A stretch of 64,000 nt of DNA from Olegusella massiliensis (lineage in GTDB: Bacteria; Actinomycetota; Coriobacteriia; Coriobacteriales; Atopobiaceae): the NCBI RefSeq assembly GCF_900078545.1, contig NZ_FLLS01000002.1, forward strand, positions 682,001-746,000. Reading direction: 5' to 3'. A program made the translations under genes and the position numbers. Below are positions 2,496 through 57,651 of the stretch, piece by piece. Under the pieces are notes generated by a model. That model saw only the letters and a list, made by a program, of their open reading frames with translations, ran no database searches and had not been told where the DNA came from. Numbering within the stretch: the first letter of the stretch is position 1; each line of letters starts with the position of its first letter.

Positions 2496-3118
2496 TATGC
2501 AAGCACCTCCCCAAAGTACTTAGCGGAGTCCTCGCTCATGACGAGGGCTACGTTATCAATGAGGTTGCGCACATTTGCCTCAGAGTTGGCAACAATGGAG
2601 ACGCCAGGGAGGTTGCGGAACGCGAGGTAAGTATCGACATCGTCGTCATCAACAACGATGGTGACGCGCTTGCCCTCGAGGTTTAAAGCCTTGAGCATAG
2701 CAGCAGCATTTTTGGTCTTGGGCTCAAGAGCGAGCTTGTCGACCACGATGAGCTCACCGTCAGCCAGCTTGCCAGAAAGCACAGAACGCATAGCAAGCTT
2801 AACCTCCTTGGAGTTAACGCGCAGCTCGTGGAGGTGGGGCGTAGGCCCAAAGATAATGCCACCATGACGGAACTGACCAGCACGAATGCTACCCTGACGT
2901 GCGCGGCCTGTACCCTTCTGACGGAAAGGCTTGACGCCGCCGCCAGAAACCTCGTGGCGATTCTTAGTGGAATGAGTGCCCTGACGCAGGCATGCCTCGT
3001 AGGCGACGACCGCGCGGTGCACCACCGGGATGTTCGGCTCAATGCCGAAGACGTCAGAAGAGAGCTCGGCCTCGCCAGCCGCTGCACCTTCGACGTTGAT
3101 CATCTGAATATTGGACAT
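2495..3118 (-). CDS. rplD: 50S ribosomal protein L4
   Basis: L4 is a 23S rRNA-binding protein with a long loop in the exit tunnel; in E. coli it also represses the S10 operon. The product of 207 residues contains the loop signature KNRHEVSGGGVKPFRQKGTG. The start chosen is the ATG at 3118 (MSNIQMINVEG). The frame is open for 20 more codons upstream, but those overlap the rplC 3' end and have no L4 similarity. It lies 10 nt after rplC. Confidence 0.96.
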   Translation of the reverse strand: MSNIQMINVEGAAAGEAELSSDVFGIEPNIPVVHRAVVAYEACLRQGTHSTKNRHEVSGGGVKPFRQKGTGRARQGSIRAGQFRHGGIIFGPTPHLHELRVNSKEVKLAMRSVLSGKLADGELIVVDKLALEPKTKNAAAMLKALNLEGKRVTIVVDDDDVDTYLAFRNLPGVSIVANSEANVRNLIDNVALVMSEDSAKYFGEVLA

Positions 3119-15119: not shown

Positions 15120-15193
15120 CTTCAAGCGGTGTGGTTTTGCTTCTTAAAAAAGGCCCAGTTTTGTTCATGGCAACTTTTTTATTCTCACGAATA

Positions 15194-15491
15194 TCAAACG
15201 CCACGCTTTGTTTCACTTTTTTAGCCAAACGCCACGTTCTATTTCACACCCTTTCACCCCAAGTGCCTAACGCCACGTTCTATTTCACTTTTTTAGCCAA
15301 AAGCCACGTTTCATTTCACCCGAAAAAAATCTACCTGGGCAAACGTCACACCCTTTGAAACGAAGTGTGGCTTTTGACTTTTTTTCTGAAACGAAACGTG
15401 GCTTTTGGCAGGCAGGACCACTCTGCTTGAAATGATTCGTGGCGTTTGACAGGCAGAGCCGCTCCATTTGAAACAGAACGTAGCTTTTGGC
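15194..15491. repeat. Head-to-head array of eight 24 bp motifs (locus A)
   Basis: Four plus-strand copies start at 15194 (23 bp), 15224, 15265 and 15296. Four inverted copies start at 15355, 15386, 15427 and 15468. The unit is GCCAAA(A/C) then GCCACGTT, two variable bases and a TTTCA(C/A/G) end. Start-to-start spacings are 30, 41, 31 and then 31, 41, 41 bp, close to three or four helical turns. A 35 bp centre containing AATCTACCTGGGCAAACGTC separates the two halves. The array lies between the rpoC terminator and the str operon upstream region. No coding capacity is believable here. Confidence 0.85.
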
Positions 15492-15511
15492 AAGCAGAGC
15501 GAATTTGGCAT

Positions 15512-46518: not shown

Positions 46519-46888
46519 GCATTACCTCCATATGCGAAGACGAGCTGCGTCGATTCTGTTCATACCCTTACTAGTATAAGACGGTCTGAGGCTCCAAACA
46601 GCGGTCTCTTCCTCTTCCCCAGTCTTCTCATGATGGCATGTAGCCGCCACTGTCTTTACTTTCGTCTTGCTGAACCCTATGCGCCCTCAACGTTCTCGTA
46701 TCAGAAGATACCACCATGCTGCAAGAAAAAGATCATCATACTCAGAGACAAACTCAGGCGTTCTGGTTTTAATGCAATGGATGAGTTGACTGCCAGCTCT
46801 ATCCCAAGCTGGCGTTGCATTAAATAGAAGCAGAGCGTACGAGAAATATTCATATCTGCACGAGCAGTCTGCTATGTTGATGCGAAGT
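46519..46888. other. Non-coding stretch upstream of disA
   Basis: I see no gene with a convincing start and no tRNA or known leader between the disA ATG and the repeat array. Several short frames exist but lack Shine-Dalgarno sites. The disA promoter must lie here; no consensus pair stands out. Confidence 0.4.
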
Positions 46889-47083
46889 GCCAAAAGCTAC
46901 GTTGCGTTTCGTGCCGCTTCAAGGCAGGTGCCAAAAGCCACGTTCTACTTCACTTTTTTAGCCAAAAGCCACGTTTCATTTCACGCGAAAAAATCTACCT
47001 GGGCAAACGTCAAGCCCTTTGAAACAGAACGTGGCGTTTGACAAACGGGAGCACGACTTTTGAAATGATCTGTGGCGTTTGGC
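46889..47083. repeat. Head-to-head array of five 24 bp motifs (locus B)
   Basis: Three plus-strand copies of the same 24 bp motif as at 15194-15491 start at 46889, 46930 and 46961. Two inverted copies start at 47019 and 47060. Spacings are 41, 31 and 41 bp. The 34 bp centre (46985-47018) again carries AATCTACCTGGGCAAACGTC. The inner part, about 46951-47023, is nearly identical to 15286-15359. It lies between the clpC terminator and disA. Confidence 0.85.
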
Positions 47084-47156
47084 AAGCAGCTCTTGTCGAA
47101 GTAGGACGAGAGCATGTTACGTTCCGCGCGCCGATTTATCTAGATGCTCGGCACAG

Positions 47157-53352: not shown

Positions 53353-54315
53353 ATGCCGACGCTGCTTTTGGTACTGATTGTGGCTGTGAGTGCGTTAGAT
53401 ATATTCATCCTGTGCCTACCATGGTTACTGAGAAAACGTGGGGTGTGGTTGTGGTGGCACACCAAATTTGGTCCAGCGCTGGTATTTGATTCACAAGATG
53501 ATGATGGAACAACCGTGCGCCTGCTAAATGTTCGGGGGAAATACCAATCGGTAGCCTATGTAGATCCTGATCTACGCTGGGAGCTCGCTTGTATTTATCA
53601 CAAGTATTTTGCTGAAATTGTCGATATTGTGGGTCTAACGGGAAACTCCCACACCACTAAATCTATAGATCAGGCGGGAAAAACTACAGATCCTCAGCCT
53701 CTTTTAGACGCCAAGGATTGCTCTTCTTCCTGTCTCAGGCATGTGCCTCCCTCAGATTGCTTACGCCAGGCTTCTTCAGAGTTCAAACCAGCTGCTGTAG
53801 TTATTGGTGGTGGCGGATACTCTTTTCCTAAATGGTTGGTCGCACATTGCCCCTGTTTGCATACGGTAGTTGTAGAAATTGACCCAGCAATTACCAAGAT
53901 TGCGCGGAAACATTTTTTTCTTAATGAGCTTCTTGAGGAATTTCCCGATAACGTCCCTGAACTCATTTGTGATGATGGCTGGGCATGGCTGCGAAACTGT
54001 CATCGAAGTTTTGACTTAATCGTTAACGACGCCTTTAGCGGAAAACATCCGCTCGGTCCTCTCGGAACGGCTGAAGGCGCACGATTGATACATCAGCATT
54101 TGACAAGTCAAGGCGTCTACCTCGCTAACGTTATTGCACCGCTGGAAGGCAAGGGATCTAGACATTTGCAGGATACATGTCACACCTTTTGTGCTGAATT
54201 CAAATATGTGTGGCTCATTCCAGAGGACGAGGAAGATCCAAACATCATTGCTAACAATTGCCTCATCGCCAGCAACCACCCTTGGCCCATCTCCCATCGT
54301 TACCTCCTGTCTTAG
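53353..54315 (+). CDS. Spermidine-synthase-like methyltransferase-fold protein with N-terminal membrane anchor
   Basis: A 320-residue protein with a hydrophobic N-terminal helix (residues 3-26) and a Rossmann-fold domain like spermidine synthase. VVIGGGGYSFPKWL is the nucleotide-type loop, VVEIDPAITKIARKHF the acidic strand, and LIVNDAFSGKHPLG the motif where synthases bind the amine. A Ser/Cys/Asp-rich insert of about 45 residues lies before the loop. Similar actinobacterial proteins are called fused MFS/spermidine synthase or polyamine aminopropyltransferase-like. The substrate is unknown and true polyamine synthesis is doubtful. Confidence 0.8.
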   Translation: MPTLLLVLIVAVSALDIFILCLPWLLRKRGVWLWWHTKFGPALVFDSQDDDGTTVRLLNVRGKYQSVAYVDPDLRWELACIYHKYFAEIVDIVGLTGNSHTTKSIDQAGKTTDPQPLLDAKDCSSSCLRHVPPSDCLRQASSEFKPAAVVIGGGGYSFPKWLVAHCPCLHTVVVEIDPAITKIARKHFFLNELLEEFPDNVPELICDDGWAWLRNCHRSFDLIVNDAFSGKHPLGPLGTAEGARLIHQHLTSQGVYLANVIAPLEGKGSRHLQDTCHTFCAEFKYVWLIPEDEEDPNIIANNCLIASNHPWPISHRYLLS

Positions 54316-54425: not shown

Positions 54426-54656
54426 GACCCCTATTCGCTCTGACGTGCGATATGCGCCATTTATTGACAAAATAGATTAGAAATTTATGCCTCATTTTCT
54501 GTAACACTGCTCTTACCTGCTATTTTGTAAAAGTGTACAGGCACGTCAAAACCCGAGAAAACACCTGCTTTGTATTTTGGTCAATCTACCTGCAAAAACA
54601 TCACTTACTTAAAACTAGACAATGGCGCATATCGTCATTTAGAGCGAATGAGGGTC
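54426..54656. mobile_element. 230 bp element with terminal inverted repeats, copy 1
   Basis: The ends are inverted copies: 54426-54461 and 54621-54656 match in 29 of 36 positions when one is reversed (outer part GACCC...ATTCGCTCT, inner part CGATATGCGCCATT). The right half, from GCACGTCAAAACCCGAG onward, is nearly identical to copy 2 at 56044-56273, while about 75 bp after the left end differ. No clear target duplication is seen. It may be a MITE or a structured RNA gene. The stretch 54316-54425 before it holds nothing I recognise. Confidence 0.75.
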
Positions 54657-54776
54657 TATTTTTGTTCTCTTCGCATACAAGAAGCACCGTTCAGTGAAAT
54701 TGTTAGGTTTGATTTTTGGCTTGGGTGGGTATGGTCTGCATATAAACTTTCAGTTTGAACACAAAGAGGTTATCTA

Positions 54777-55994
54777 TTGCAGCCGCCACAGCAGCCGCAT
54801 ATTGTTCTCTCGCACACAAGCGCCTTGTGGTACCACCGCCTTGCTGCTGCAGGAATATTTTCTCCGCCTTTTTCGTGCAATTACAAGACTCTTGAATCGG
54901 CAAAGGATTGTTTGTCCAAGGTACCTCATTTAGACAAATCTTGGTTCCACATTTCAACAACAGATCTTGCTGCTCGGTCTATCTATATCCAGGAAGATGT
55001 CGAAAATTTTTTGTTGGAGCATCCTCACGAAGACCCATGGGCAGCACTGGCAGCTTCTTCCCTACTACCTCATAATTTTCAGCCACTAAAGAACATAGAG
55101 CTCCTTTGCAATTCATCGGCTCATCGCCATTGGCGCAATAATGTGGCCGTCCACCGCCACTCTACAGCGCTCCCTAAGGGATCGGTTTTGCGAGCTGGAG
55201 TTGGTTTGTACGTAGCGTCCCCAGAGTTTACGATTTTCCAGATGGCGCGCTATCTCAAGGATGTGCATTTATTAGCAGCACTTATTACCGAATTTTCCGG
55301 GTCTTACGTCTTGTTACCTCAAGGGCTATTGTGCTGTTCGCGCTATACAGCTGAAGGGAAGACGCCAATACAAAGTGGCCGTTTGATTGGAGATGGCTAT
55401 GTTGAATGTGCGCCTCTCATCTCAGTAGATAATCTCAAACATCTTCTAAACAAATATCCAGAGCTACCTGGAAGTACACTTGTTGAAAAAGCCCTTAAAG
55501 CCAGTGGTAATGGCAGTGAATCTCCTTTTGAAACTGCAGTGAGCGTTGAGTTGCAGCTCATTCGAAGTCGTGGTGGTGCAGGTGCAGGCTCGGCACGATT
55601 AAATAAAAAAATACCTTTTAATGAGATAGAACAACAAATGGCAAATGGCCGCAGTCATGCTCGCGCAGATATCTTGTTTGTTCGTCCCGATGGTAAACGA
55701 ATAGACGTTGAGCCTGGAGGAGTATTCGGACACTCAGGCAAAAAGGCGATGGACTTAGATAGACGTCGGCGTCATGCGCTTGAACATGCAGGCGTAGAAG
55801 TTATTGACATCACATGGGATGAATATGCCAACAGAGATGTGTGGGAAACCATTTGTCGACGAATAACGAATCACCTTGGAAAACGTTTTCATGTGCCATC
55901 ATTATCGATACAAAATAAACAACAACTGGTTCATGATGATTTCTGTAATTGGAATTGCATGCGAATATTCCCACCAGATGCATGGCGAAGATAG
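54777..55994 (+). CDS. AbiEi-like N-terminal domain fused to PD-(D/E)XK/DUF559-type nuclease
   Basis: A 405-residue protein of a type I associate with Coriobacteriia. The N-terminal half has SHTSALWYHRLAA and the block SPEFTIFQMARYL, as in AbiEi-like and similar regulators. The C-terminal domain has SPFETAVSVELQLIRSRGGAG, then ARADILFVRPDGKRIDVEPGG, where Asp and Glu could be the metal ligands of a restriction-like or DUF559/Vsr-like nuclease, and VIDITWDEYANRD. TTG at 54777 follows AGAGGT; a TATAAA at 54741-54746 could be its -10. It is flanked by the two ~230 bp elements, suggesting a mobile cassette. The function is unknown. Confidence 0.7.
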   Translation: MQPPQQPHIVLSHTSALWYHRLAAAGIFSPPFSCNYKTLESAKDCLSKVPHLDKSWFHISTTDLAARSIYIQEDVENFLLEHPHEDPWAALAASSLLPHNFQPLKNIELLCNSSAHRHWRNNVAVHRHSTALPKGSVLRAGVGLYVASPEFTIFQMARYLKDVHLLAALITEFSGSYVLLPQGLLCCSRYTAEGKTPIQSGRLIGDGYVECAPLISVDNLKHLLNKYPELPGSTLVEKALKASGNGSESPFETAVSVELQLIRSRGGAGAGSARLNKKIPFNEIEQQMANGRSHARADILFVRPDGKRIDVEPGGVFGHSGKKAMDLDRRRRHALEHAGVEVIDITWDEYANRDVWETICRRITNHLGKRFHVPSLSIQNKQQLVHDDFCNWNCMRIFPPDAWRR

Positions 55995-56043
55995 CACCTA
56001 GCTTAAACTCTGATTCAAATGGGCTGACCACAGGTTGACTGAA

Positions 56044-56273
56044 ACCCCTATTCGCTCTGACGTGCGATGTGCGCCATTTAGCAGCCATTTTTATTTAATA
56101 TTTGATACAGATTCTCCACGGTATAGTCATCTACCAGCGGTTTTATATACCTCTTAAGGCACGTCAAAACCCGAGAAAACACTTGCTTTGTATTTCAGCC
56201 AATCTACCTGCAAAAACATCACGTGCTTAAAATTAGGTAATGGCGCACACCGTCATTTAGAACGAATAGGGGT
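56044..56273. mobile_element. 230 bp element with terminal inverted repeats, copy 2
   Basis: Same orientation as copy 1. The left end 56044-56078 is inverse to 56239-56273. Where copy 1 has ATAT in both inner arms, copy 2 has ATGT in the left arm and the pairing ACAC in the right, so the arms have changed together. AATCTACCTGCAAAAACATCAC is common to both copies apart from flanking changes (written here in two parts: AATCTACCTG and CAAAAACATCAC). The right end is directly joined to a 13 bp perfect hairpin. Confidence 0.75.
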
Positions 56274-56303
56274 GGCCGACTGGGCCGGCCACCCCTATTT
56301 TGT
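56265..56303. terminator. 13 bp perfect hairpin joined to the element end
   Basis: AATAGGGGTGGCC (56265-56277) pairs perfectly with GGCCACCCCTATT (56287-56299) around a 9 nt loop. TTTTG follows on the plus strand. It lies between convergent nuclease and DUF389 genes and likely terminates both. The left arm is also part of the element end. Confidence 0.7.
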
Positions 56304-56320: not shown

Positions 56321-57511
56321 TTATTTTGTGGCTGAGCTTTCTGCTGTTGCTGAGGGAACTGAGACTGCATCATGAGGTTTTGCGGCATCGGTATCTGCAG
56401 GCTCATCGCTAACCGTTGCGTTCTCCCCGTCTTTTGCCTCAACCTCAAATCGCAATTCATCGAGTTGCTTGATATGCACGCGCAGCAAGCCTCTTATCTC
56501 AGATTTCTTCAAATTATCCAACTCTTCTTTTGTCTTGAGCGTCGCCACCAAACGCTGAGAGAGCGCATCCGATTTGCTGTCATATGCATTAACCGCACCG
56601 ACCCTATATGAGACAAAACCTGGACAAATAGCTTCCAGTTCCTGCGTAGTCTGCCTTACCTCATAACTATCTTGCACAATAAACGCTTCACCCGAGTTCT
56701 GCGCCATCGTCTCATTGACCGCATGAACCGTCAGAAGCACGCAGGGGATGAGAAAAACTAGCGTTCCAATCGCTACACGCCGACGCAACACTATTGACCT
56801 GTGCATTGCTGCTTTGTTCTCTGCAGTACTCACCACTCCGTCCCCATCTAAATCTCGTTTGAGGGGAGTTTTCAACAACATTATTACCACCTGGGCTGAC
56901 ACCGCAATAAATAATGCGTTCAGCAAAAACTCATAAAAGGCACCGGCGAATAGCGTGAACTTTGCCATCGCAATACCATAACCAGAAGCACATAAAGGTG
57001 GCATCAGCGCAGTCGCTACTGCCACACCCGAAAGCAATGTACTCGGCTCTTGATCGCGCGAAATTCCAAGTCCACCCGCAAAACCTCCCGCCAAAGCAAT
57101 CAGCACATCCCAAATATTGGGATGTGAATTAGTCAACAGCTCAGAGGTCTCATTTGAGATAGGAGAAAGTACAAAGTACAAAGTCGACGTAACGAGGCAA
57201 ATAATCACCTGCACCACAAAGCCAACCAATACCTCACGCAACATGCGCAAATCGGCAGTCGCCACTGCATACGCAAAACCCATAACTGAGCCCATCAGCG
57301 GACAGATGAGCATGGCGCCAATAACGGCTTCGGTGGAATCCATATTAAGACCCACCGACGATATCAGCATTGCCACGATGAGCAAGCATAGATGGGGCCC
57401 ATCAATTCGCGCTCCAGCCTGCACGCGGCGACGAATCACCTGGTAACTAGCTCGCCCATCGCGCACATTTACAAATTCCCGGAGAAGCCGCGTGAGATTT
57501 GTCGCAACCAC
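56321..57511 (-). CDS. DUF389 family membrane protein with EF-hand-like loop
   Basis: A 396-residue membrane protein of the DUF389 family (function unknown). About six membrane segments lie in residues 40-290. Family motifs are GLNMDSTEAVIGAMLICPLMG and SGVAVATALMPPLCASGYG. A cytoplasmic-type loop after the fifth segment contains DLDGDGVVSTAE, a perfect 12-residue EF-hand calcium loop pattern. The C-terminal 110 residues form a soluble domain with a disordered Ser/Ala/Asp-rich end. GTG at 57511 is behind AAAGGGGG. Confidence 0.87.
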   Translation of the reverse strand: MVATNLTRLLREFVNVRDGRASYQVIRRRVQAGARIDGPHLCLLIVAMLISSVGLNMDSTEAVIGAMLICPLMGSVMGFAYAVATADLRMLREVLVGFVVQVIICLVTSTLYFVLSPISNETSELLTNSHPNIWDVLIALAGGFAGGLGISRDQEPSTLLSGVAVATALMPPLCASGYGIAMAKFTLFAGAFYEFLLNALFIAVSAQVVIMLLKTPLKRDLDGDGVVSTAENKAAMHRSIVLRRRVAIGTLVFLIPCVLLTVHAVNETMAQNSGEAFIVQDSYEVRQTTQELEAICPGFVSYRVGAVNAYDSKSDALSQRLVATLKTKEELDNLKKSEIRGLLRVHIKQLDELRFEVEAKDGENATVSDEPADTDAAKPHDAVSVPSATAESSATK

Positions 57512-57651
57512 GCCGCCCCCTTTCGTTGATTTTAAAATCGAACAGTCATGCAACAGCCATGTTCAATTGTAGGCATAGTCAAGGAGGTCTAATATCTTTG
57601 ATGAGTTGGTAACGCAGAGAACTCGCAGAGCGCAAACCCGCAACTGAAAGT

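Follow-up and report, generated by a model that had tools for sequence, protein, structure and literature searches.

The closest described counterparts of the locus reported here are the bacterial MITEs and the Tn3-derived TIME elements. MITEs such as Chunjie (235 bp), MITEAba12 and the Correia elements are short, non-coding, AT-rich sequences that are bounded by terminal inverted repeats (TIRs), lie between genes, and form a strong hairpin in RNA form (PMC10969869, PMC6382973). TIMEs are miniature elements of 262 bp that are derived from Tn3 and carry TIRs of 38 bp, and a pair of TIME copies in direct orientation is able to mobilize the intervening DNA, a composite known as TIME-COMP (PMC4133298). 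The window analysed here, a stretch of 64,000 nucleotides from the genome of Olegusella massiliensis, contains two short, TIR-bounded elements in the same orientation with a single gene between them, an arrangement that can be compared with both.

Element A (54427..54655, + strand) is 229 bp long and lacks one base compared with the 230-bp family to which it belongs, and element B (56044..56273, +) is 230 bp long. The left and right TIRs lie at 54427..54461 (+) and 54621..54655 (-) in A, where the left arm contains two conserved blocks, ACCCCTATTCGCTCTGA and CGATATGCGCCATT, and at 56044..56078 (+) and 56239..56273 (-) in B. The arms of each pair are 35-36 nt long and 80-81% complementary, and the 20-nt TIR core occurs twice in the window, where chance alone predicts 0.01 occurrences. 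Both elements also carry an internal block, block 3 (TCTACCTGCAAAAACA; 54585..54600 in A and 56203..56218 in B, both +), that is common to a second palindromic repeat family described below. The first-pass annotation had proposed two same-orientation elements of about 230 bp with TIRs of 35-36 bp, bracketing one gene and containing no transposase. Positions, strand and arm lengths were all confirmed, and a single sizeable ORF (54777..55994, +; TTG start, 405 aa) lies between A and B. The elements have a G+C content of 39-42%, compared with 51% for the window, and fold more stably than shuffled sequences (z-scores of -5.7 to -6.2); no Rfam family matched them above threshold. On the left, the A-ORF-B segment is preceded by a gene with a spermidine/spermine synthase domain (SpeE-like; 53353..54315, +), and on the right it is followed by a gene for a DUF389 membrane protein (56321..57553, -). 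Just downstream of the ORF, at 56266-56299, there is a GC-rich hairpin followed by TTTTG, one arm of which is the right tip of B and the other the sequence at 56287-56299, so that part of a terminator may come from B.

A TIR pattern search identified four copies in the 1.81-Mb host genome, A and B among them. In the sister genome, that of Atopobium sp. oral taxon 810 F0209 (hereafter G001), the same search gave 24 TIR matches, corresponding to about 12 copies, a difference in copy number of about threefold between sister species. No TIR pattern match was found in the three other genomes of the genus or in the remaining 25 relatives, and a control search with the reversed pattern returned zero matches. 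When exact TIR patterns were scanned across 84,980 species, the only matches were to G001 contigs, apart from two lone matches at chance level, and the plasmid, phage and viral collections contained no copy of the element. All copies that we read are intergenic. Their neighbours at other loci include dehydrogenase/LytTR, nitroreductase, ABC transporter, argH/clpC-like and LacI-type regulator genes, with no nuclease gene at any of the other loci read and no consistent gene neighbour or orientation among copies. The link between element and nuclease genes that the first-pass annotation suggested is not supported: copies at other places with no nuclease gene, the first of the observations that it had named as refuting its proposal, were seen. 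The elements form a dispersed family, lacking a transposase, in two genomes. Copies also cluster elsewhere in G001, where one at 69775 is accompanied on the same contig by a half copy at 70659. A minimal G001 copy (L064:3439-3500) consists of two TIRs joined as a 62-bp hairpin, with the core missing. Our literature search found no report of a MITE in the class Coriobacteriia, and the 230-bp repeat family has apparently not been described before.

The most unusual property of the family is its constant length. Ten copies can be aligned over 230 columns with no more than one gap, of a single base, even though identity in the core falls to 49-63% between subfamilies; by a rough minimum-spanning estimate, about 490 core substitutions have accumulated against one indel. 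Neutral, fossil MITEs would be expected to show more indels. The best conserved parts are the TIRs, in which ACCCCT.TTCG.TCT.A and CGAT.TGCGCCATT form a pair of blocks, together with three internal blocks that span columns 87-96, 120-138 and 158-173 and start about 36 bp apart. Within the TIRs, 20 of 35 pairs are invariant and 6 of 35 have changed on both sides, the latter a modest excess over shuffles, and beyond the TIR stem the consensus contains no helices other than two pairings of 3 bp. RNA structure was accordingly rejected as the main constraint, the TIRs being conserved chiefly in sequence, and their conservation would instead reflect binding of a protein to the TIR sequence.

Measured against the known elements, the family shares several features with MITEs: a length of 229-230 bp, 35-bp TIRs, no transposase, and several dispersed, intergenic copies. 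Like bacterial MITEs, the elements are AT-rich and form a strong hairpin. However, their TIRs exceed the usual range of about 4-30 bp, no target duplication adjoins them, no parent IS was found, and length is maintained exactly, with three ordered internal blocks, despite the 50-60% core identity between subfamilies. Tn3-type ends begin with GGGG, whereas the outer tip here reads ACCCC. The locus further differs from TIME and TIME-COMP in that there is no 5-bp duplication, that no movement has been seen, and that A and B are old and unequal.

Comparison of the two species places the insertions in time. A, B and copy D sit at corresponding positions in the two species, the G001 counterpart of the copy C site retains a remnant of 19 nt (4 nt of flank plus a TIR tip), and the O. 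massiliensis site that matches the G001 copy C17 retains a degraded TIR. Thus, all five of the five testable insertions predate the split of the species. No direct repeat abuts the TIRs of any copy, and target duplications may be absent because the copies are too old. Copy D and its G001 ortholog (L007:5035-5264 and L063:5930-6196) have the 8-bp sequence ATCAGAGG on either side, set off from the ends of the TIRs by 6 and 3 nt; this repeat could be a target duplication plus additional bases. The comparison yielded no clean empty site, and the flanks of the G001 copies C34:79834 and C21:26071 could not be recovered or aligned in the O. massiliensis genome. Exact TIR patterns revealed no autonomous partner with the same TIRs among the 84,980 species, although gaps in the G001 assembly could hide one. 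The locus itself was seen only in the two element-bearing genomes, where its order is the same (SpeE-like, A, ORF, B, DUF389) and its flanks match. In G001, however, element A is inverted and is identical to G001 B at 230 of 230 positions. Shared TIRs let copies recombine with or convert one another, which would explain both features of G001 A. Alternatively, the state of G001 A could be an assembly artefact; other copies in this assembly contain N gaps and duplicated ends.

What does the bracketed ORF encode? Its sole domain match is to REase_MTES_1575 (PF18741), a family of the Vsr fold (defined in PMC3710099), at 17.9 bits, which is below the Pfam cut-off of 38.2. The match lies in the C-terminal region and recurs in all six close relatives, with a best E-value of 9e-4, and the N-terminal two thirds have no domain match. 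A profile built from the six relatives matches the Vsr-like mobile-intron endonuclease 3r3p weakly (E 0.011), and several residues that could be catalytic, among them D298, D310, E312 and H319, are invariant across the six. Structure prediction without an alignment gave no reliable model (mean pLDDT 34). Judged from these sequence matches, the ORF is plausibly a Vsr-fold nuclease. The first-pass annotation had called the product AbiEi-like or PD-(D/E)XK-like; the nuclease part of that assignment agrees with the weak REase_MTES_1575 match, but AbiEi does not, as no AbiEi family profile in Pfam, NCBIfam or PADLOC matches the ORF. The dN/dS ratio of the ORF relative to the sister species is 0.10, indicating that it is under purifying selection.

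Relatives of the ORF are far more widespread than the element. Of 100 related genomes, 73 contain broader relatives, with up to 12 per genome, against two genomes with the element, and the relatives outside these two genomes have no elements alongside; viral contigs contain no relative of the predicted nuclease. In two genomes of the genus, G004 and G002 (L067:2705-10149 and L068:5552-10690 cover both loci), relatives that are 54-55% identical to the ORF, also free of elements, lie beside SngA and SngB of the Shango system (SngABC). In G004, where the Shango genes were assigned by profile matches, the relative sits between SngB and SngC; in G002, where assignment was by sequence likeness, it sits beside SngA-SngB-like genes without SngC. 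Based upon this context, the relative could be an accessory nuclease of Shango. The ORF in the window, by contrast, adjoins none of SngA, SngB or SngC, its neighbours being the SpeE-like and DUF389 genes. We take the ORF, which has relatives inside Shango-type operons, to be an orphan that encodes a predicted, possibly defence-related nuclease.

We consider it probable that A and B belong to an old, non-autonomous MITE-like family, and that these two copies bracket a resident, predicted nuclease gene most likely by chance. For each insertion, a transposase or recombinase would have acted on the TIRs in trans, so that the elements would be mobile, and mobility or some other function would need a defined nucleoprotein or hairpin architecture, accounting for the fixed length and the three blocks spaced 36 bp apart. 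Copies would then recombine with or convert one another through their shared TIRs, and the ORF would be a resident gene under selection that A and B happen to surround. Several observations weigh against this reading: no target duplication adjoins any copy, neither an empty site nor an autonomous partner came to light, and indels are strikingly few. The coincidence also has a cost, in that with random placement two of only four copies would fall 1.6 kb apart with a probability of about 1% (6 pairs x 2 x 1.62 kb / 1807 kb). This figure favours the cassette proposed by the first-pass annotation, in which two MITE-like copies moved the ORF as one unit with a transposase supplied in trans, as in TIME-COMP. 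Composites of two miniature elements are documented (PMC4133298), and in the comparison of the two species the ORF has a dS of 0.25, below the values for its left and right neighbours (0.41 and 0.44), which could mean a more recent exchange of the interval. However, dS is comparably low in genes elsewhere (0.22 and 0.26), and the sequences to the left of A (TTTTAATG) and to the right of B (GGCCGACT) provide no outer direct repeat. Moreover, the segment is found at one and the same locus in both species with no second location seen, A and B are old copies whose cores have diverged to 67% identity in the O. massiliensis genome, and ORF relatives outside the two genomes lack elements, with no other pairing of nuclease and element. 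Movement of the ORF as a composite is thus improbable, and even if true would follow the known TIME-COMP design. Still less credible is the idea that the predicted nuclease spreads its own flanking elements in the manner of homing systems. The match to a mobile-intron endonuclease would fit such a role, but element copies elsewhere come without the ORF and ORF relatives elsewhere come without elements, and we give this idea next to no weight. The arrangement invites interpretation as a 'nuclease cassette' but fits better with two copies of a repeat around a resident gene; the repeat is an apparently new family for the Coriobacteriia.

Two further readings assign the elements a function in the host. 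In one, they would not derive from a transposon but would serve the host, as structured RNA or as DNA that carries binding sites in a set order. This would account for a length of 230 bp held through about 490 inferred core substitutions with one indel, for the three conserved internal blocks at 36-bp spacing, for a folding z-score of about -6, and for the presence of a similar block at the centre of the second palindromic family, which has the same host range. Yet the TIRs are conserved mainly in sequence, as the pattern of invariant and doubly changed pairs indicates, the neighbours and orientation of the copies are inconsistent, Rfam offers no match, and copy number differs threefold between sisters, making a host function unlikely on balance. 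In the other, A would be an invertible switch that flips between its own TIRs upstream of the ORF and thereby controls ORF expression. The distance from A to the ORF downstream of it is 121 bp, and A is oriented oppositely in the two species, but its complete identity to B in G001 is better explained by conversion by B or by an assembly artefact, promoter-like sites in the A-ORF-B region show no excess over chance, and other copies do not consistently lie ahead of genes. A switch at this position is accordingly very doubtful. The invariant 230-bp length, the ordered blocks, and the core shared with the second family raise the question of what machinery maintains them.

This second family consists of dispersed palindromes of about 110 bp with arms GCCAAAAGCCAC...GTGGCTTTTG. 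Its arms can also be given as GCCAAAAGCCACGTTTCATTTCA / TGAAAC..AACGTGGCTTTTGAC around a core, AAAAATCTACCTGSGNAAACGTSA, and extra arms are often repeated outward. In the window it occurs at 15190-15503 and 46880-47090, and further stretches are found in L176-L203. There are about 8-10 copies in the O. massiliensis genome and about 25 in G001, and the family is essentially absent from other relatives, which is the host range of the 230-bp element. In A and B, block 3 has the sequence AATCTACCTGCAAAAACATCA, and 18 of 24 positions agree with the centre of the second family. This likeness was equalled in 0 of 2000 shuffles for A and likewise for B, but is marginal for copy C and not significant for D. 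A common machinery for the 230-bp element and other palindromic families is possible. For example, in these two oral species one enzyme could act on several unrelated palindromic families whose sole common feature is the core block AATCTACCTGC..AAAC..TCA, namely the 230-bp element, the ~110-bp GCCAAAAGCCAC hairpin family, and possibly two more. We put this forward tentatively, as a rather unlikely proposal; if true, the core and not the TIRs would be the common signal, and the families would represent a new core-directed system for palindrome mobility or chromosome organization. G001 also contains two further hairpin types, with arms GATGGTTCAAGTTTCG and AAAAGGGTTCCTAATTC and a similar A-rich ACCWGC centre (L112:2350-2480 and 2830-3000; L109:2100-2200; L062 near 6500).
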